64,000 nt of DNA, taken from an uncultured Porphyromonadaceae bacterium (GTDB lineage: Bacteria > Bacteroidota > Bacteroidia > Bacteroidales > Muribaculaceae). Where the stretch lies: contig CAMWMD010000005.1 of assembly GCA_947175265.1 (NCBI GenBank), forward strand, positions 1 to 64,000. The letters run 5' to 3'. The position numbers were made by a program, and so were the translations under genes. Position 1 is the stretch's first letter; each line of letters begins with the position of its first letter. Under the pieces are notes generated by a model that made no database searches, had not been told where the DNA came from, and saw only the letters and a program-made list of their open reading frames with translations. This document shows positions 8,270 to 38,122 of the stretch, in pieces.

Positions 8270-9661
8270 ATGAGCCACATCATAAACCGAAGGGAGTTCC
8301 TGAAAAGACTCGGAATCGGAGCCGGAATCACCGGGCTTGCTCTGACCGGTTGCAAAAGGCCGGCCGAGAACCTGGCACGGGATAATTCTGCCTCCAAGGA
8401 TATCCCCACAGATAAAATGACCTACCGGATAAATCCCAAAACCGGTGAGAAAGTCTCCATCCTCGGATACGGGTGCATGAGATGGCCCAACAAGGAGGAT
8501 GACAGCGACGAAATCGACCAGGAGGCTGTGAACCGTCTCGTGGATACGGCCATTGCGCACGGCGTGAATTATTTCGACACATCCCCGGCCTATTGCAGAG
8601 GGAAATCGGAACACGTCACCGGTATCGCGCTCTCCCGCCATCCGCGTGATTCCTATTTCATCGCCACGAAAATGTCGAATTTCGCTCCTCAAACCTGGAG
8701 CCGGGATGCCTCCATCGCCATATACAGGAACTCGCTCAAGGAACTCCGCACCGACCATATCGATTATATGCTCCTGCATGCTATCGGAGGTGGCGAGGAT
8801 GCCATGAAGGTGTTCAACTCGCGCTTCATCGATAACGGAATCCTCGATTTCCTTGTGGCCGAAAGGGAGGCCGGAAGAATACGCAATCTCGGTTTCTCCT
8901 ATCATGGCGACATCGCTGTGTTCGACTGGGCTTTGGCTAATCATGACAAGTACAAGTGGGATTTCGTGCAGATCCAGCTCAACTATCTCGACTGGAAACA
9001 TGCCAAGGAACTGAATCCCCGCAACACCGACGGCGAATATCTGTATGGCGAACTTGAGAAACGCGGTATACCGGCCGTGATAATGGAGCCCCTGCTCGGC
9101 GGAAGGCTCTCCAACGTGCCTGACCATATAGCCGCTCGCCTGAAGCAACGCGAACCGGAAAACAGTGTGGCCTCCTGGGCCTTCAGATATGCCGGCACTC
9201 ACCCCGACGTGCTTACCGTGTTGAGCGGTATGACATACATGGAGCATCTTGAGGATAATCTAAGGACGTATTCCCCACTGAAACCTCTCAATGAGGATGA
9301 GATTCAATTCCTCTACGACACCGCCGACCTTATGGTGCAGTATCCCACCGTGGCCTGCAACGATTGCAAATACTGTATGCCCTGCCCTTACGGAATTGAC
9401 ATACCGGCCATCCTGCTCCACTATAACAAGTGCGTCAATCAGGGTAATGTCGCCGAGAGCACACAGTCGCCCAATTATGCCGAGGCCAGACGCGCATTCC
9501 TCGTGGGATACGACCGTTCGGTGCCTAAACTCAGGCAGGCGAGCCATTGCATCGGATGCAACCAATGCTCACCACATTGTCCACAATCCATTGATATCCC
9601 CAAGGAACTGCACCGAATTGACCGTTACGTGGAGGATCTCAAACAGGAGACCCTCTCATGA
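8270..9661 (+). CDS. Tat-signal aldo/keto reductase with C-terminal 4Fe-4S domain, probable lipoprotein
   Basis: NRREFLKRLGIGAGITGLALTGC = Tat motif plus lipobox; AKR motifs GYGCMRWP and FDTSPAY; C-terminal CNDCKYCMPCPYG and CIGCNQCSPHCP. Confidence 0.9.
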   Translation: MSHIINRREFLKRLGIGAGITGLALTGCKRPAENLARDNSASKDIPTDKMTYRINPKTGEKVSILGYGCMRWPNKEDDSDEIDQEAVNRLVDTAIAHGVNYFDTSPAYCRGKSEHVTGIALSRHPRDSYFIATKMSNFAPQTWSRDASIAIYRNSLKELRTDHIDYMLLHAIGGGEDAMKVFNSRFIDNGILDFLVAEREAGRIRNLGFSYHGDIAVFDWALANHDKYKWDFVQIQLNYLDWKHAKELNPRNTDGEYLYGELEKRGIPAVIMEPLLGGRLSNVPDHIAARLKQREPENSVASWAFRYAGTHPDVLTVLSGMTYMEHLEDNLRTYSPLKPLNEDEIQFLYDTADLMVQYPTVACNDCKYCMPCPYGIDIPAILLHYNKCVNQGNVAESTQSPNYAEARRAFLVGYDRSVPKLRQASHCIGCNQCSPHCPQSIDIPKELHRIDRYVEDLKQETLS

Positions 9662-9770
9662 AGCCTCGGAGGATATGTCTACCCTTCTGAAGACACGACC
9701 CGGTGGCAATCCCTCTTAGGGAAACCGACATACATTAATAATTTCTCAGATACTAAAACGACCTGACAAT

Positions 9771-9965
9771 ATGCATTCTTTATTTTTCATCGGAGGGTTA
9801 GGTGCCTCCGAAATACTCCTCATAGCACTCGTGGTGCTCCTCTTTTTCGGAGGTAAGAAAATTCCTGAAATGATGAAAGGCCTTGGAAAAGGTGTTCGTT
9901 CTTTCAAAGAAGGTATGAAGGAACTCGAACCCGAGACCAAGGATTCAGAAAATACCGAAAACTGA
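9771..9965 (+). CDS. tatA: Sec-independent protein translocase TatA/TatE
   Basis: 64 aa; single TM then LFFGGKKIPEMMKGLGKGVRSFKEGMKE amphipathic helix, diagnostic of TatA. Confidence 0.9.
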   Translation: MHSLFFIGGLGASEILLIALVVLLFFGGKKIPEMMKGLGKGVRSFKEGMKELEPETKDSENTEN

Positions 9966-10000
9966 CACAATCGGAATGCCGTGACCCAATGGCTTCCGCC

Positions 10001-10028
10001 GACGGACGATCCTCTCGGGTCGTCCGTC
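10001..10028 (+). terminator. Stem-loop downstream of tatA
   Basis: GACGGACGA-tcctctcggg-TCGTCCGTC, perfect 9-bp stem; no clear U-tract on + strand. Confidence 0.5.
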
Positions 10029-10092
10029 TCCATAAAAAAAGCATGTTGCTGTTACGTTCCGGCGCCTTATCCGTATCTATAGTGTAAGCAAC

Positions 10093-10572
10093 ATGAAAAC
10101 AGACCGACTCACATATTCATTCCTGAACGTGCGTGACAGATTGCACCGGAATGCCCTGAGAATCCTCAAAAACGATGAGGATGCCAAGGATGCTCTTCAG
10201 GATACATTCTACAACCTTTGGAAGAATGAGCCACCCGCATCTGACACCGAAGCACGCAACAAACTCTTTACGGTATTACGAAATATCTGTATAGACAGGC
10301 TCCGCCGCAGGCAGACTGTACCGATAAATGAATCTGACCTCGGGGAAATCACAGTCCAACCCGGTTTCTCAGAGGATATGGAGCGCCTGGAGACCTTGCT
10401 TTCAACTGGCTTGACTCAAATTCAACGGGAAATATATACCTTTGCAGTACACGACTGCCTGGAGTATGAGGAGATTGCCTCTCGGCTAAACATGACGGTA
10501 GAAGCCGTGAGGATGAATATGAGCCGGGCAAGAAAGAGAATAAGGGATAATTACAAAAAACTGAACAGATGA
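10093..10572 (+). CDS. ECF RNA polymerase sigma factor
   Basis: DAKDALQDTFYNLWKN region 2 and ECLEYEEIASRLNMTVEAVRMNMSRARKRIRD-like region 4. Confidence 0.9.
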   Translation: MKTDRLTYSFLNVRDRLHRNALRILKNDEDAKDALQDTFYNLWKNEPPASDTEARNKLFTVLRNICIDRLRRRQTVPINESDLGEITVQPGFSEDMERLETLLSTGLTQIQREIYTFAVHDCLEYEEIASRLNMTVEAVRMNMSRARKRIRDNYKKLNR

Positions 10573-11066
10573 AAGACAACGACCACATACTGACACTGCA
10601 GGAGACTGAGGAACTCTGCCGGTTATATATGGAGTGTAAACTTTCAGTGCTGGAAGAGAAGGAACTGCAGTATATCCTTGGGATGATGCCTTACAGTTCT
10701 CCCGTTATCGAGGAGGCGAGAGAATCCATGAGGGCTGAGGGGATATTATCCCTCAATACAAAGGCTCGTAAAAAGCCGGAAAGGAAATGGCTGCGGCGTG
10801 CCGTAGGAATCGCGGCTTCGGTATCCGTAATCCTCATGGTCTCCCTCTTCATTACAAATCATTCCGCCGATTCGGGGGAAGAGGAGATAATAATTGCATA
10901 CGAGGGGGGACGCCGTCTCAGCCCCGAGGAATCTGAGAAGGCTGTGGAGGAAGCACAGAGGAAAGCCGAGGCCCTTATGGCTATGGCAAAGGAAAAAGAG
11001 AGGGAGGAGGAACTGAAACAGGAATACTTCATAAGTTTAATGTCAGATAAATCATACAAGAAATGA
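10569..11066 (+). CDS. Single-TM protein downstream of the ECF sigma (possible anti-sigma)
   Basis: Overlaps sigma stop; one TM helix (AVGIAASVSVILMVSLFI) between charged N-terminal and Glu/Lys-rich C-terminal regions. Confidence 0.6.
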   Translation: MKDNDHILTLQETEELCRLYMECKLSVLEEKELQYILGMMPYSSPVIEEARESMRAEGILSLNTKARKKPERKWLRRAVGIAASVSVILMVSLFITNHSADSGEEEIIIAYEGGRRLSPEESEKAVEEAQRKAEALMAMAKEKEREEELKQEYFISLMSDKSYKK

Positions 11067-28095: not shown

Positions 28096-28299
28096 TCATA
28101 AAATGAAATGCCTAAAGATTGATTCTCCGTTTGAATATGGATAAGGCAATAGGCATACGACAGCGAGAAGAGCAATAAATACGATTGCTATTATAACTGT
28201 TCCCCATCGCACTAAGGAAGGGGGAATTTCTCCGATGAGCTTACGGACTTTTTCTGAGCGAAGCTCAATCTTATCATGAGCATTGTTGGTAGTTTCCAT
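28096..28299 (-). CDS. Small membrane protein resembling the N-terminus of HlyD-family adaptors
   Basis: 67 aa, IELRSEKVRKLIGEIPPSLVRWGTVIIAIVFIALLAVVCLLPYPYS then stop; 2 bp from the ABC transporter ORF. Confidence 0.65.
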   Translation of the reverse strand: METTNNAHDKIELRSEKVRKLIGEIPPSLVRWGTVIIAIVFIALLAVVCLLPYPYSNGESIFRHFIL

Positions 28300-30493: not shown

Positions 30494-32836
30494 TTAGAAA
30501 GTCCCGTTATCAATGTCAATGTTATTTAGTTTTTTATTGAAATGACTATTTTTCCCTCGAGAAAAATTCCAACTAAATCCTATAACAACCATGGATCGAT
30601 TATCATTTATCCATGAGTTACAAATATGTTTAACTAAATTATTATTCAATATTTGTTCTCTGTATTTTGCTTTCGTTAGGAACCATTGACAACTTGCACT
30701 GATTCTTATATTCTTATATTGAAAATAAGAATTTAACGAGCTTATATTTTCATCTGAAATTAGGTTTGACCCAGAAATTTGATCTGTAGGAATATTACAT
30801 TTATAACTTATTCCCCAATTTTGACTGTTATAGGCCAATTGTATAAATGTAGGTAAATATAGGTTCCTTGTTACCTGTCCTTCATTATTTATAAGCCTTT
30901 GTTCAAGAGCCATACTGATGACTCTTAAATTTACTTTATCAGATAGAAAGCTAAGTTTTCCTGAAAATATTCCACCGTATTGAATGAAATTTTTAGCGTT
31001 GCTATCTTTAGCTATTATATATTCTTGTTTATTAATCATTTCAGAGGTATAAAATAGGTCTATAGGACTAGAGTCTAAATTATAAGTAACCCCTAATGTC
31101 ATATCAAAAATATCTCCCAAATATCTGTATCCTAATATATTAGTATAACTAATACCCGATTTAAGATCGGGATTTCCAGTATGTATTAAATGAGAGGTTA
31201 CATATTCGGCATTATCACTAAGTTGAGTTAATGTTGGTATGATAGGATAAGATTTTGCATTAAAAGATATATGATGCTTTCCTTTAAGTGCCCAATCCAT
31301 GACTATCTGAGGTGTAACATAAAATTTACTATAATTAGATTCGCTTGTCGAAGATTTTAACAATGTTCCCCCTATGCTAACTCGATACATGATTTTATGA
31401 AAAACGCCTGAGTATTCTCCATATATATAGTTGGAAAAATAATTTGATTTATATTTAGACTCAGTATAGTTTGTAAGTATATTCTTACCTTTTGCTGAGG
31501 CTTGGTTAAAGGTACTCTTATATCCAATTGAAAAAGAATTAAGTCCCAGTCGTTTAGTATAGAATAATTCCCCTATCAATGACATTTTAGAGGTTTCTCT
31601 ATTCATGTTATCATTAAATGATGAGGAATTATTGTTAGCAAAAATCTCCTCTGCAGAACTATGTAAATCTCCCTTAAAATAAGTTGCAACGATGTTACCG
31701 GCCAATTCAGAGTCGTTTTTTAATTTTTTTGATATATATAAATCTAAAGATGGTCTGAAGTAATTAGAGTTTGTTTTTTTGTTCCCTACACCTGTATTAT
31801 TAATGTCATCTTCTTGAATAATAATATTACTTGTTGAATTATCAAACTTGTTTTCAAATTCAGGTTTAATTGTAGCTTGAAAGGAAATTCTATTTGGGTC
31901 AGAGTATATATATTTAATCTCTGGGATATGAGTTGTGTATCCGAATTGATTATGAGATTTTGACTCATAATCAATGGTATTCTTTTTGAAGTAATAGGAA
32001 TAATCTTCATTTAAGAATCTATCTCGATAATTTCGGTAATTAATTTGATAATTTATAACAAACTGATTTTTACCATAAATAGCCCTTAGAAAAATATTGT
32101 CATTAAAGAAACCTGCTGTTATGGCATGGGAGATGTCTATTCCACCGTTTAGGCCATTGTCTAAAGTTTTGGTAACAACATTAATTACGGCGGTTGTATT
32201 TGAATACCGGGCAGACGGTATGGTGTAATATTCTACATATTTAATTTTATTTGCCGGAATACTTTTTAAGTCTGTTATGGATGAATTAATTCCATTTATT
32301 AGAATGCCAACATTTCCTCCGGATAATTTGGATAAATTACCGGAGATGGGATCTATTGTTAAATCACTGATATTTTCTAATAAGTCAGCAGAATGTCTGG
32401 CTCTTGAGCATTGCTCAGAGGTGAATCTGTATTTTGTGTGATCTGCATATACCGTGTTGCGATTGGCTGTGACAACAACCTCATTCAAGTTTTTTGCATC
32501 TGTTGCCATTGTAAAATTGCGCACAATAGTATTGCTACCAGATGGCATTCTAAGAGTAATTATTGATTTATTATCAATATATCCTATATACGAGATTTTA
32601 ATTGTATATTTTCCCGGAGCCAAGTTATCTATTATGTACAAACCTTTTAAGTCGGTTAAAGCACCTGTAATTGGTGTGATTGAATCGTTGGATGCAAATA
32701 TCGTAATATTAGCAAATTGAAGAGGCTCATTGCTTCCTTCAATTTTTCCTTTCAAGGTTATTTGTGAATAACCTTGAAAGGAATTTATTATGAATGAGAA
32801 AATTAATACTATTAATCTTAAAGTTTTAACAGACAT
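30494..32836 (-). CDS. Outer membrane beta-barrel protein with CarboxypepD_reg-like domain
   Basis: Signal peptide; ITLKGKIEGSNEPLQFANITIF...GALTDLKGLYIIDNLAPGKYTIKISYIGY; plug-like (LNEVVVTANRNTVYADHTKYRFTSEQCSRARHSADLLENI); barrel. Confidence 0.85.
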   Translation of the reverse strand: MSVKTLRLIVLIFSFIINSFQGYSQITLKGKIEGSNEPLQFANITIFASNDSITPITGALTDLKGLYIIDNLAPGKYTIKISYIGYIDNKSIITLRMPSGSNTIVRNFTMATDAKNLNEVVVTANRNTVYADHTKYRFTSEQCSRARHSADLLENISDLTIDPISGNLSKLSGGNVGILINGINSSITDLKSIPANKIKYVEYYTIPSARYSNTTAVINVVTKTLDNGLNGGIDISHAITAGFFNDNIFLRAIYGKNQFVINYQINYRNYRDRFLNEDYSYYFKKNTIDYESKSHNQFGYTTHIPEIKYIYSDPNRISFQATIKPEFENKFDNSTSNIIIQEDDINNTGVGNKKTNSNYFRPSLDLYISKKLKNDSELAGNIVATYFKGDLHSSAEEIFANNNSSSFNDNMNRETSKMSLIGELFYTKRLGLNSFSIGYKSTFNQASAKGKNILTNYTESKYKSNYFSNYIYGEYSGVFHKIMYRVSIGGTLLKSSTSESNYSKFYVTPQIVMDWALKGKHHISFNAKSYPIIPTLTQLSDNAEYVTSHLIHTGNPDLKSGISYTNILGYRYLGDIFDMTLGVTYNLDSSPIDLFYTSEMINKQEYIIAKDSNAKNFIQYGGIFSGKLSFLSDKVNLRVISMALEQRLINNEGQVTRNLYLPTFIQLAYNSQNWGISYKCNIPTDQISGSNLISDENISSLNSYFQYKNIRISASCQWFLTKAKYREQILNNNLVKHICNSWINDNRSMVVIGFSWNFSRGKNSHFNKKLNNIDIDNGTF

Positions 32837-32847
32837 ATCGCAACACA

Positions 32848-33567
32848 TTATTTGTTGATAAAGAAAGAGCTTTCACTAAGCCAATAATCAGGTTTATTAG
32901 CCTGTGAACCAATTGTAAGTGTAATGTCTATAGCTTTTCCATATAAAGGGTTCTCTTTTGTATCATATACAGTGATCTTTTCAATTACATTCGCAGGAAT
33001 TTGATTGAATGCTGACGTTTTCTCCGACCCAACGACATTCCCGTTTATACAGAATAAGACACCACGTTCATCTGTTGTAAACCATCCATCATCGTCATGG
33101 TTTATGCTTTCAAGTGAGAGAAGTATATCATTAAGATTAGATGCTGTAGCGGGGAGATTTTCTTTTGAGAGAACTTGATTCTCATAACGTATGGGGCTGC
33201 CTTTCAGCTTTATGCGGATATTTGTAGTCGCATTCCCGGAAAATGGTTTGTTGTCCCAAATTTCAGGAATAGGAGTAATTTGGAGTTTACGAACATAAGA
33301 ATTTGGAGATTCTACTACTATATAGTAACTCTTGGTATGATCGTATGGCTTTATAGTATAGTTACCCATTGGTCCGCATACGGCAAAGTATGCAAGATTT
33401 TTTAGAGTACTGTCGGAATATAGTTTTACTGTAGAGAAAGGCACTACTGTTTGTGTTGAGTCCATTTCACTATATATGGTCCCATTTATCCAGATATTGG
33501 ACTGACTGAACAATGGCATTGAACTTATGAACATAAATGCCATTATGATAATCTTAGATAGCTTCAT
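32848..33567 (-). CDS. Secreted CarboxypepD_reg-like plus plug-like protein without a barrel
   Basis: 239 aa; signal peptide MKLSKIIIMAFMFISSMPLFS; plug-like VLFCINGNVVGSEKTSAFNQIPANVIEKITVYDTKENPLYG, then ends. Confidence 0.65.
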   Translation of the reverse strand: MKLSKIIIMAFMFISSMPLFSQSNIWINGTIYSEMDSTQTVVPFSTVKLYSDSTLKNLAYFAVCGPMGNYTIKPYDHTKSYYIVVESPNSYVRKLQITPIPEIWDNKPFSGNATTNIRIKLKGSPIRYENQVLSKENLPATASNLNDILLSLESINHDDDGWFTTDERGVLFCINGNVVGSEKTSAFNQIPANVIEKITVYDTKENPLYGKAIDITLTIGSQANKPDYWLSESSFFINK

Positions 33568-34837
33568 TTCTTTTAGCGATTATTTTTTGTTTTAGATTTA
33601 GAAGAATCATATTTTCTTTGCTTATTGAATCCTTAAAAGGACATTCAATTGAATTTATATCTGTCGCTTCTATGAGTTGCTGGGAACATATTCCCGGACA
33701 ACAAGGGAGTAGAGAACAGTCTAGACATTTCTGAGGTATTTGGGCAGATAGACGATGATTTATTTTAGATGTATTCCATTCAATATAACCATCAGAGTTT
33801 AAGATGCCTTCAGGATTCTCTTTTGTGAAGTCTCTTGCAGTGCATTTGAAAACTTTACCATCATAATTAATGACGGCATGGTTATAGTTGTCTGCATAAC
33901 AAGATTCAAACTTTTGGGCAAGTCTAAAAGTGTTTACTATGAAATTTCGATTATTTATTCGTTCTATTGCATGGAAGAGATTGGCATAATCTTCTTTAGT
34001 TGCTGAATATTGCCATATTCTATGCAATGAGATGAATGTTCTTTTTCTATTTAAGAAATCCAGATCTTCAATTAGGTTGTCTATCTTGGCAAGAACTCTA
34101 TTGTCATAGTTTATTCTAATTGTGAAATAGAATTCTGCATCCACGCTATTGAATAGTTTTAACCCATCAATGATTTTCTTATAAGAGCCCTCATTGGTGA
34201 TTTTTGATTTATATGTGCGGACAGAATTGTGCATGTCTTCGTCACCATCAATCGTTATTTGAAAACGAGTTGGAAATGACTTAAGCAACTCTGCATATCT
34301 CTCATGCAAGAAAGTTCCGTTGGTTACGAAGGTAAGATTAACTTTATATCCGAACTCATCTGATAATGATTTCACTCCGTCTAAAAGTTTCTTGATGGCA
34401 CGATAGTTCATCATAGGTTCTCCTCCAAAGAAAGACAGTTCTAGAACCTCAAAAGGTTCAGTTGTGGTTTTTATCTTTAGATGCTCAAGGATAGTGTCAA
34501 CTAAACTTAAGGTAAGAAACGACTTCCTGAGATGGGTCTCATAACAATACCAACAACCTAGATTACATTCCAGAGTTGTATTGATTATTAAATTATAAAT
34601 ACGGTTAGAATGCTTCCTAGTGAAGAAAAATGATTTTACCAGATTTTTCTCACAAACGTCATCATTAACTAAAAAGCCCTTATCTAAAAGTGTTTGTGTT
34701 ACTGATGAGAAAGCGTCTCTACAATCAAGTACCGACTTTATTTCTTGATTGATGAATATGAACTGATTAGTCAGAGAATTGAAAATCAGTTCTCGCCCAT
34801 CTAAGTTTAAGTGGTGATTATAAATACTTGGTTTCAT
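33554..34837 (-). CDS. Radical SAM/SPASM peptide maturase
   Basis: CxxxCxxC in TLECNLGCWYCYE; FFGGEPMMNY; SPASM: C...GKVFKC and CLDCSLLPCCPGIC (CX2CX5CX3C) followed by C. Confidence 0.93.
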   Translation of the reverse strand: MKPSIYNHHLNLDGRELIFNSLTNQFIFINQEIKSVLDCRDAFSSVTQTLLDKGFLVNDDVCEKNLVKSFFFTRKHSNRIYNLIINTTLECNLGCWYCYETHLRKSFLTLSLVDTILEHLKIKTTTEPFEVLELSFFGGEPMMNYRAIKKLLDGVKSLSDEFGYKVNLTFVTNGTFLHERYAELLKSFPTRFQITIDGDEDMHNSVRTYKSKITNEGSYKKIIDGLKLFNSVDAEFYFTIRINYDNRVLAKIDNLIEDLDFLNRKRTFISLHRIWQYSATKEDYANLFHAIERINNRNFIVNTFRLAQKFESCYADNYNHAVINYDGKVFKCTARDFTKENPEGILNSDGYIEWNTSKINHRLSAQIPQKCLDCSLLPCCPGICSQQLIEATDINSIECPFKDSISKENMILLNLKQKIIAKRNEAI

Positions 34838-34846
34838 AATTTTAAG

Positions 34847-34889
34847 AAAGAGACTCTACGCTCCACATAATAAGGCGTAGAGTCTCTTT
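34847..34889 (-). terminator. Stem-loop (attenuator) between precursor and radical SAM genes
   Basis: AAAGAGACTCTACGC / GCGTAGAGTCTCTTT, perfect 15-bp stem, 13-nt loop. Confidence 0.7.
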
Positions 34890-34907: not shown

Positions 34908-35093
34908 TTAATTGTTTTTGGGACAGTTGCAATTATTACATGCGCAATTACCATCGATTTCTATGCCCACGAAGTCTAAGACTTCTTTGAGTACTTTGCC
35001 TAAGCCGCCTCCATTGATAGATGCTAGCTCGTTCTCAGACGACAGGATCTCAAGATCCATTTCGTCAAACTTTACAGATACTTCTGTCTTCAT
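34908..35093 (-). CDS. RiPP precursor peptide with double-glycine leader and Cys-rich C-terminus
   Basis: MKTEVSVKFDEMDLEILSSENELASINGGGLGKVLKEVLDFVGIEIDGNCACNNCNCPKNN; next to SPASM radical SAM and C39 ABC exporter. Confidence 0.9.
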   Translation of the reverse strand: MKTEVSVKFDEMDLEILSSENELASINGGGLGKVLKEVLDFVGIEIDGNCACNNCNCPKNN

Positions 35094-35207: not shown

Positions 35208-35576
35208 TTAGTTATATAAATATCCTGTTGCTATCCACGTTTCACTGATGATCTTTATTTTATAGAGTCCGGGAGTTGAGATTTGGAATATTGTATTTAT
35301 CTCGGGATCGTATCCTATGATAGTTTCGTTTAGATAAAGGAAAGTTTCACCGGTTGCCTCGCCGTCATAGCAAATGTTTAGAGTTCCGCTCCCCTCATCA
35401 TAATATACATCTATATTGATGCGCATAGGCGCACGATGTACAACAGGGGTAGAGTTATTCTTTCGCTGAACTTCTAATTCTACTCGTGTAGTTGAAGAAG
35501 CGCCGGATGACCCTTGAGCAACCAATGGAAAAGAGAATGCTATCATTACAAGAATGAGAGAAAAAAATTTTTTCAT
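35208..35576 (-). CDS. Small secreted DUF3244-like protein
   Basis: Start MKKFFSLILVMIAFSFPLVAQ; INIDVYYDEGSGTLNICYDG...TGLYKIKI pattern. Confidence 0.65.
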   Translation of the reverse strand: MKKFFSLILVMIAFSFPLVAQGSSGASSTTRVELEVQRKNNSTPVVHRAPMRINIDVYYDEGSGTLNICYDGEATGETFLYLNETIIGYDPEINTIFQISTPGLYKIKIISETWIATGYLYN

Positions 35577-35717
35577 TTCAATATGATTTTTGGTTGGTTT
35601 TGATGTTGCAAAATTACAATGGCCTACTTTCATCCACCAAAACAAAACTTTCATATTTGAAAACTATCACAGTTTATAAATACTTAAAAATAAGGGTTAT
35701 ACAAATATGCGAAATAT

Positions 35718-36209
35718 TTAGTTTTGCACATTATCTTTCTGACTTTCATATAAACCATAATCTGAAAGTTTTTGGAGGTAATTTCGCAGATTTGTAGTCT
35801 TGGAAGGCATCCCCAACTTACGCCGGATTGACCAACTAAGATTATAATGACTCTTGAAGCCTGTTATATGTTCATATTCTTTACCAGATAATCCACATAT
35901 CAAGGCACACATATATCTTATCTCATGTATTGAGAACCGATTCAAGTTGGTCAATACCTTTAATGTATGATTTGTTTTAGATATAGTATCCAGAAGCCTT
36001 TCCCATGGAATTTCCTCCATTCGAAACATGTCATTCCCAAAGTCGGATGCCAATTCTTTAACTTTCAGGGATTCATTTAGCAGCCTTTCATGAATGTGAA
36101 GTAACTCCTCATGGGTTCTCCCATTGTCGGCTATAGCATACAATAATTTGGAGAGGACTTTTAATGCAAGCCCCCTCTTTGATAATGATAAGACATTTTT
36201 ATTAGGCAT
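35718..36209 (-). CDS. Stand-alone LuxR-like HTH protein homologous to C-terminus of 36362..38122
   Basis: IHEIRYMCALICGLSGKEYEHITGFKSHYNLSWSIRRKLGM parallels VGEINYVCLYAIGLRGKEVGNYMKKRSHVNISSGIRKKLGI. Confidence 0.65.
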   Translation of the reverse strand: MPNKNVLSLSKRGLALKVLSKLLYAIADNGRTHEELLHIHERLLNESLKVKELASDFGNDMFRMEEIPWERLLDTISKTNHTLKVLTNLNRFSIHEIRYMCALICGLSGKEYEHITGFKSHYNLSWSIRRKLGMPSKTTNLRNYLQKLSDYGLYESQKDNVQN

Positions 36210-36361
36210 TTTTATTGCAAAAATAGCACATGATACTTTCATTCAAAGAATAAAAGTTTCATGCGCTATTCTTTTAATACGCTACTATATAGCATATTGA
36301 GATTAATGAAAGTCTTAAATCCGGCACACGGAAAGAAATACTTTCATCAAATGTGGCTTAC

Positions 36362-38122
36362 TTACAATTCTTTTAAAAGTTTGCGCACATAAATACCAAT
36401 ATTTGTCTCATGTTTGTCTATGCCGAGTTTTTTGCGTATGCCGCTGCTTATATTGACATGACTACGTTTCTTCATATAATTTCCCACTTCTTTGCCTCTT
36501 AACCCAATGGCATATAGACATACATAATTGATTTCGCCTACCGTTAAGCCGTGATCCTCAAAATACTGAATAAACCGGGGATGGGAAACTTGAAATGCCA
36601 GACGATTGCTGTTCATGAACTCTTCAGTATTGTCAGTGAGTTCTTTAATCCATGACTCGTAGGGCTTTTCATACTGTTCATTATCCGTTATATACCCGGC
36701 CATTAAAGCATTCAGCATCTCAATGCGGACTTTAATGGCTTGTTGGACTTCTGAAGGCAATTCCTCCTGTGAATCGATTAATTCCTTCAGACTTGCACTC
36801 TCATTTTCCAATACTTCAACACGGTGAGAAAGATTTTCTGCCTCCAAGGCTTTATTATCCCTTTCCAGTTGTAGATTTTTGTTCTCAAGTTCCAATTTCT
36901 CTCTATCGGATTTCAATCGCTTGTTTTCAAGTTCAGAAGACTTTGCCCTCTCAATAGCCAAGTCTTTTTGACTTTTATTACTACGGAAAAGCAGGAGCAT
37001 AATGATCACAACCATAATGAGGAAAATAATTCCACCTATACAACACCAAATAATTTTAGCTTTTTCCCTCGCATCTTGTTGGGATTTAAGTTCAATCTTA
37101 TGTTTCTCCTCAATAGATTTCGACTTTTGGTCGAATTTAAATGTGTTTATTGAATCTATGGAATGACTGAATTGCTTATATATTGTGAAAGCCTCTTTGT
37201 AATCACCCATATTTTCAAGAACCGGTACTAATATTGCTTGATATTTGAGGGTATTAAATCCGGGACGGTTATTACTGATATAATTAAGTAGATGCTTTGC
37301 CTCAACATAATTTCCTAATTTATAATGCGCTGATGCTAAGTTGAGTAAACCATTTGTATCAAGGTCGTAATTGTCTTCCTGACGCTCTATCAATCCTCTA
37401 ATCTCAGGTATGTCCCCAAACTCCAAAGCGTGAGATAGTCTATATCCGGTTAAGACAACTTCCTGTGTGCTATCCAAATCAGAAAAACCATCACATAATG
37501 CCAAAATGCTATCTCCTTTGTTTTGATTACCCAATAACATGGCTCCATTAAGTGCATTAAGTAAGCAATCAAACTCATTCCGTTTAAGTGACAAATCTTT
37601 ATATATCTTAGCTGCTTCCAAGTAACAGTTGGTATAACTATTAAAGTCATAGAAGTCGTGATATAATCCACCTTCCGCCACCAGTGTCCTTGCTATTGAT
37701 ACTGAGTCAGTGCTCTCTGAAGACACATCCATACTCTTAATAAATGCATTCAGTGCATTGTCTCTGTCTCCCATGTTCTGGAATATACGACCTTGATAGT
37801 AGTATGTTCTAAGTTTCTCATTTGCATTGCCTTTTTCCAGATAATAATCTATGGCCGGCTGTAACACTTGAAAATTCGTTGTGTCAATATAGTTCTTATC
37901 CAAAGCCATGGATAAGAGCAGGGCATATCGGGCTTGCTCTTCTCTTGATCCAAGGTCTGATTTTTCAATTCCTTTAAGAAGGCTTAACGCTGAATCCGGA
38001 TAAGACTCCATTAGCGATTCAGCACGGGTTAACGTTACTTGCACCTTATGATTTGAACAGGATGATATGCAACAGGCCAACAATAATTGAAGAAGCCCAA
38101 GGAAGTGATATATACGTTTCAT
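36362..38122 (-). CDS. TPR / transmembrane / coiled-coil / LuxR-like HTH regulator
   Basis: Lipobox-like N-terminus, TPR-like repeats, TM (IIWCCIGGIIFLIMVVIIMLLLF), C-terminal HTH. Confidence 0.8.
   Translation of the reverse strand: MKRIYHFLGLLQLLLACCISSCSNHKVQVTLTRAESLMESYPDSALSLLKGIEKSDLGSREEQARYALLLSMALDKNYIDTTNFQVLQPAIDYYLEKGNANEKLRTYYYQGRIFQNMGDRDNALNAFIKSMDVSSESTDSVSIARTLVAEGGLYHDFYDFNSYTNCYLEAAKIYKDLSLKRNEFDCLLNALNGAMLLGNQNKGDSILALCDGFSDLDSTQEVVLTGYRLSHALEFGDIPEIRGLIERQEDNYDLDTNGLLNLASAHYKLGNYVEAKHLLNYISNNRPGFNTLKYQAILVPVLENMGDYKEAFTIYKQFSHSIDSINTFKFDQKSKSIEEKHKIELKSQQDAREKAKIIWCCIGGIIFLIMVVIIMLLLFRSNKSQKDLAIERAKSSELENKRLKSDREKLELENKNLQLERDNKALEAENLSHRVEVLENESASLKELIDSQEELPSEVQQAIKVRIEMLNALMAGYITDNEQYEKPYESWIKELTDNTEEFMNSNRLAFQVSHPRFIQYFEDHGLTVGEINYVCLYAIGLRGKEVGNYMKKRSHVNISSGIRKKLGIDKHETNIGIYVRKLLKEL

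Follow-up and report, generated by a model that had tools for sequence, protein, structure and literature searches.

The reverse strand of the window (the whole 64,000-nucleotide stretch of DNA that was analyzed, from the gut-type Bacteroidales genome of an uncultured Porphyromonadaceae bacterium) carries a single-copy gene cluster, very probably for the production, crosslinking and export of a small Cys-tailed peptide. The reading favored here, with moderate confidence, is a RiPP cluster in which leader-guided thioether crosslinking of tail cysteines is followed by C39 cleavage and export. All genes lie on the same strand, transcribed in the order 586-aa regulator, 174-aa regulator, 148-aa protein, precursor, maturase, 239-aa protein, 784-aa protein, PCAT and 67-aa mini-HlyD (Table 1).

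Table 1 Features of the window cluster and of related loci (L numbers).
Feature	Position	Strand	Basis
586-aa regulator: lipoprotein-like start, TPR repeats, membrane helix, C-terminal DNA-binding-like domain	36362..38122	(-)	
174-aa regulator	35718..36242	(-)	C-terminal domain common to 586-aa regulator
148-aa protein, probably exported, no assigned function	35208..35654	(-)	Homologues at same place in L168, L157
Candidate precursor peptide gene, 61 aa, MKTEVSVKFDEMDLEILSSENELASINGG followed by GLGKVLKEVLDFVGIEIDGNCACNNCNCPKNN	34908..35093	(-)	ORF; leader score best of 346 GG sites
Leader, residues 1-29, ending E-8 L-7 I-4 G-2 G-1	35007..35093	(-)	Sequence and leader score
Amphipathic half of core, GLGKVLKEVLDFVGIEI, residues 30-46	34956..35006	(-)	Hydrophobic moment; comparison with 52 relatives
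Cys/Asn tail, DGNCACNNCNCPKNN, residues 47-61	34911..34955	(-)	Sequence
Strong hairpin between precursor and maturase genes	34847..34889	(-)	Folding energy against shuffles
Radical SAM/SPASM peptide maturase, 427 aa, RRE-like N-terminus	33554..34837	(-)	Pfam Radical_SAM, invariant residues, model, fold match
239-aa protein, weak TonB-plug-like stretch, probably exported	32848..33567	(-)	E 0.03, below cut-off
784-aa outer-membrane-type protein, carboxypeptidase-regulatory-like N-terminal domain	30494..32848	(-)	CarbopepD_reg_2 2.2e-12; counterparts in related clusters
PCAT, C39 peptidase-ABC exporter, 728 aa	28302..30488	(-)	Peptidase_C39 1.6e-33, ABC_tran 1e-30
Mini-HlyD, 67 aa: adaptor's cytoplasmic tail and one membrane helix, nothing more	28096..28299	(-)	Conserved short ORFs beside PCATs
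Mini-HlyD of related loci	L168:12138-12401, L152:8568-8777, L153:9341-9538, L154:2413-2610, L156:10289-10489, L163:3071-3226		
Mid-size adaptors lacking most of the centre	L019:8454-8948, L035:4580-5056, L008:11260-11742, L013:11493-11954, L086:11517-11996		
Full-length HlyD adaptors	L172:1178-2473, L175:1249-2556		
L132 precursor, ...KDEMLLVKGG followed by VTTSSPYTDTYNGVCFGTCNIYCPKTPTK			
L089, L091, L092, L093 precursors, NNGSGxC-type repeats			
L096 precursor, NNGxNC repeats			
L008, L035, L099 precursors, CxxxC repeats with Gly			
L098, L101, L102 precursors, GCGCxC blocks			
L133 precursor, HGCGC...HGCDC			
L037, L046, L063 precursors, CxC...CxCxC tails			

The precursor ORF starts with ATG, and its boundaries agree exactly with those of the initial annotation, which had described a GG-leader precursor of the adjacent enzyme. 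A double-glycine leader with the hallmark residues E-8, L-7 and I/L-4 precedes the core GLGKVLKEVLDFVGIEIDGNCACNNCNCPKNN. Positions -15 to -1 of the leader (EILSSENELASINGG) scored 15.0 on a matrix derived from 68 leaders found in related clusters, compared with a median of 18.0 for the relatives. This leader outscored every other GG site in the six-frame translation of the 64-kb window, which has 346 in all; in 60 dinucleotide shuffles of the window the best leader score averaged 12.0 and reached 15.4 at most. Four cysteines within the last 15 residues were seen in only two of 303 short ORFs, namely the precursor and an unrelated ORF without a GG leader. Each of the two features could thus arise by chance, but their coincidence in one ORF located 70 bases upstream of the maturase hardly could. 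Cleavage after GG29 would give a 32-residue core starting with GLGK; the third glycine (GGG) leaves the cut site slightly ambiguous, the GG30 register scoring only 0.05. Neither curated bacteriocin model (TIGR01847, NF038034) was passed by the precursor, its leader scoring 13.5 bits against the 15.7-bit cut-off of TIGR01847 bacteriocin_sig, so the evidence for the leader comes from the family comparison and the gene neighborhood. Judged from its sequence, the ORF is almost surely a RiPP precursor, given the top leader score, the maturase directly downstream, and a cluster that contains an outer-membrane protein, a PCAT and an adaptor stub.

The maturase matches Pfam Radical_SAM with an E value of 1.8e-14. 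Its cluster-binding cysteines, comprising the C91-X3-C95-X2-C98 motif and seven SPASM residues (C313, C332, C371, C374, C380, C384 and C399), are invariant over 19 aligned sequences. The predicted structure has a pLDDT of 88.8, and residues 7-75 are confidently modeled as three strands and three helices, an RRE-like layout of the leader-binding type that, in the model, overlaps CteB. CteB is also the best solved-structure match (E 2e-19, TM 0.65), followed by TigE (TM 0.70) and SuiB. These features uphold the proposed pairing of the GG-leader peptide with this enzyme. The CteA/CteB pair of the SCIFF ranthipeptides (5WGG) has the same combination of RRE, radical SAM and SPASM folds, but the maturases are only 17-18% identical and the window precursor carries four tail cysteines rather than the SCIFF pattern.

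Among the matches listed, the maturase passes no NCBIfam cut-off. Its best curated scores were for TIGR04463 (135.2 against 525 bits) and CefB (133.9 against 600), families that likewise act on Cys-rich targets; the scores are far below the cut-offs, however, and the window precursor is not of the Cys-every-fifth kind that CefB modifies. The scores were lower still for PapB (NF047865, 107.9 of 340 bits), SCIFF (TIGR03974, 72.3 of 425), GG_samocin_CFB (TIGR04148, 58.4 of 300) and RumMC (49 of 720), and GggB also failed. The sister enzyme of locus L132 and the other relatives tested failed every cut-off shown, and their precursors match no model. The caution of the initial annotation that the exact modification is not readable from the sequence is shared; no sactipeptide, ranthipeptide or SCIFF maturase cut-off was passed. 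The literature searched described no chemistry for this maturase clade. The enzyme branch and the peptide are uncatalogued, and the kind of system is already known. In the whole host genome (3.25 Mb, 95 contigs), this kind of maturase and the mini-HlyD each occur once.

The initial annotation had called the precursor unusual, which proved apt for the amphipathic half. On the Eisenberg scale LGKVLKEVLDFV has a helical moment of 0.72, and the whole 17-residue segment one of 0.43, a value reached by 4% of shuffles. Compared with 52 relatives (precursors in which 12 or more residues separate GG from the first Cys), the pre-Cys segment of the window ranked second in hydrophobic fraction and was the most charged among the top eight. 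Such a hydrophobic, charged segment is rare among related precursors and absent from L132, which has a polar segment in its place. The helix would thus be specific to this lineage and may be the half that binds a membrane or target. An amphipathic segment behind a GG leader would also suit an unmodified class II-like bacteriocin that is exported by the PCAT with disulfides in its tail, the maturase serving another peptide, and residues 19-35 weakly resemble lactococcin G-beta/enterocin 1071B (NF038034, 17.3 bits against a cut-off of 37). Little weight is given to this highly improbable reading, because no second precursor for the maturase was seen in the cluster and because the maturase and precursor genes are adjacent, in an order kept in relatives. 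In the tail of the precursor, the CACNNCNC codons occupy positions 34923-34946, and three of the four cysteines have Asp or Asn at position -3 (D47-C50, N49-C52, N54-C57).

Conservation of the Cys spacing among homologues, which the initial annotation had proposed to check, was not borne out: none keeps C-x-C-N-N-C-x-C, the outcome that the annotation itself had named as refuting. Precursor searches of 297 genomes of the family gave chance-level matches alone (E 0.04-0.08), and IMG/VR gave none. These genomes are a sample. The CxCNNCxC pattern occurred at 41 places in 394 Bacteroidales genomes, and the 20 places inspected revealed no GG-leader precursor; the CACNNCNC spacing, taken exactly, recurred in no other precursor. 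Relatives of the maturase are numerous throughout Bacteroidota at 28-37% identity, with none closer even in the 111 genomes of the genus. In 94 of 127 loci with related maturases a recognizable GG-leader, Cys-bearing precursor, read from the DNA around the maturase gene, is located near the enzyme gene. A tree of the 127 enzymes, built by a quick method with SH-aLRT support only, places the window and L132 as sisters (95) within sets of 8 (96) and 21 (100). The recognizable precursors of the 21-member clade have GG leaders and Cys-dense tails with Gly/Asn (Table 1), and GNCSCSCTC-like tail ends are seen outside it (L013, L031, L019, L135). No precursor was found upstream of the maturase in L024 and L137, and that of L129 was found only downstream; L100 (G234, same family code) and L051 have a common precursor. 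Judging from these sequences, what is conserved across the enzyme clade is the class, a GG leader with a Cys-dense Gly/Asn-rich tail, often with CxC, and not the spacing.

In three loci (L022:5071-7834, L072:5051-7367 and L074:6025-7910), a single maturase is preceded by an array of some 6-9 precursors in tandem, whose cores are NNCxGGNCxxGC-like.

Dense CxC and CxxC cysteines with few other constraints, together with 27 CxC occurrences in the enzyme clade against 10.6 in shuffles (an excess driven by GCGC-type precursors), would be compatible with a metal-binding peptide, in which CxCxxCxC holds copper, zinc or an iron-sulfur cluster, the helix serves as membrane anchor and the maturase introduces a minor change or none. 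This is considered quite improbable, as no metal transporter or metal regulator was recognized in the cluster and the Cys spacing varies in relatives, unlike that of metal sites.

In the favored thioether reading, the radical SAM/SPASM enzyme would hold the precursor by its leader, through the N-terminal domain. The enzyme would then link sulfur from one or more of the four cysteines in the tail with a carbon of a neighboring residue, which could be an Asn, Asp or Ala of the tail or belong to the helix before it. The product would be a short knotted tail on an amphipathic helix. By analogy, Cys-to-carbon thioethers are the likeliest modification because the nearest solved fold, CteB, is a thioether synthase, though no curated family cut-off was passed. 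Cyclophanes, epimers and cyclopropanes are further products of SPASM enzymes, made with no involvement of Cys. The maturase might form a carbon-carbon link or epimerize the precursor, leaving the cysteines free, in disulfides or metal-bound, and it is true that neither TigE nor SuiB is a thioether maker and that the curated-model scores spread alike over thioether and cyclophane families. We regard this as somewhat unlikely, since Cys density is the main common trait of the clade precursors, aromatic residues for cyclophanes are few, and the best fold match and best curated scores belong to thioether or Cys-rich-peptide maturases.

Known thioether peptides offer partial parallels to the tail. 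NxxcA contains a Cys23-Asn20 thioether, with Asn three residues before Cys (PMC8326336), and freyrasin, made by PapB, a Cys-Asp link (PMC9413430); in both, Cys is joined to the beta-carbon of Asn or Asp, and N/D-x-x-C occurs three times in the window tail. The likeness may be accidental, and it is not relied on because the motif is not enriched in the relatives. A positional acceptor rule drawn from residue enrichment around Cys was rejected, the signal being dominated by repeat units and yielding no rule for the window tail. Family-wide, Asn is enriched at -4/-5 and Gly at -1 to -3 relative to Cys, which differs from the N-x-x-C of the window, so no acceptor position can be read. Ruminococcin C, a sactipeptide, also has C-x-C donors, one of them linked to Asn, with Glu likewise among the acceptors (PMC8188230), but its C-x-C pair precedes the acceptors, whereas the window cysteines lie at the C-terminal end. 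A bolder version, which we think distinctly unlikely, is that the clade of the window, L132 and relatives makes a hitherto unseen crosslink on the cysteines of Gly/Asn-rich tails, for example overlapping Cys-Asn thioethers in CxCNNCxC, and that the product, a helix with a knotted tail, is released by an exporter operating with a bare membrane stub in place of full HlyD.

The PCAT is expected, from its sequence, to cut after the double glycine and would export the resulting 32 residues; the mini-HlyD stub, together with the outer-membrane protein, would stand in for the normal adaptor and TolC. Mini-HlyD ORFs of 52-103 aa directly follow PCATs of the window family in at least ten loci, and those found beside PCATs in many genomes are mostly 45-75% identical to that of the window. 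A reading of the 67-aa HlyD remnant as a broken gene was rejected, because it is conserved with the same end point in many genomes. Elsewhere in Bacteroidota the position after the PCAT is occupied by adaptor forms of 154-178 aa or by full-length HlyD of 432-447 aa (both full-length proteins scanned carry HlyD_3). The full, mid-size and mini series suggests a stepwise reduction of the periplasmic adaptor. Pfam recognizes none of the short forms, which may be a reason why PCAT-OMP clusters without a membrane fusion protein have been reported in Bacteroidales (PMC10352776).

Beside a more distant maturase (9276-10643), L154 has a regular-Cys precursor (TCAEFTCAKFEDCKAFACGIF, L154:10646-10831) and the same type of PCAT and mini-HlyD, so that the same kind of exporter works with more than one kind of maturase. 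Between maturase and PCAT, two genomes whose precursors are short and NNC-bearing have a pair of related ORFs (481 and 490 aa; L153:4250-7164, L158:1861-4775).

The cluster order is conserved in L168 (same genus, G218), which has the 586-aa regulator, 148-aa protein, precursor, maturase, outer-membrane-type protein, PCAT and mini-HlyD in succession. Identity to the window is 37% for the regulator, 32% for the 148-aa protein, 30% for the maturase, 72% for the PCAT and 75-82% for the mini-HlyD. Conservation is much stronger in the exporter and stub than in the maturase and precursor, as though changing peptides passed through a constant export unit. The 586-aa regulator shows TPR matches and a partial match to the BT3442 family, and has homologues of 35-38% identity in the related clusters L157, L159 and L168. 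The C-terminal domain of the soluble 174-aa regulator is 40% identical over 57 residues to that of its membrane-anchored neighbor, and the two may work as a pair in sensing the exported peptide as a signal. Antagonism (bacteriocin-like) or signalling is the most likely role of the product, given the exporter and the membrane-anchored TPR regulator found also in the related clusters; no immunity gene was recognized in the cluster. The hairpin between precursor and maturase genes (-26.1 kcal/mol, z -5.5, with none of 200 shuffles as good) is likely an attenuator or mRNA-end stabilizer, through which the precursor would be made in excess over the maturase.

Radical SAM enzymes are the commonest match in predicted Bacteroidales RiPP regions, and the radical SAM RiPP clusters described there resemble that of the window in their GG-leader precursors, radical SAM/SPASM maturase, PCAT, outer-membrane protein and TPR-type regulators (PMC10352776). 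Several of those were reported without an adaptor protein, whereas the window cluster has the adaptor stub, and its core of helix plus Cys tail is unlike theirs; as far as the text of that study shows, it is absent from the nine clusters presented. The window cluster is a small system with a single precursor and a single maturase, the latter of an uncatalogued clade, and its cysteines are packed too tightly for several known spacing rules to hold as they stand. The mini-HlyD may matter more than the precursor itself. The cluster also bears on the published question of how PCAT-exported Bacteroidales peptides cross the envelope without an annotated adaptor.
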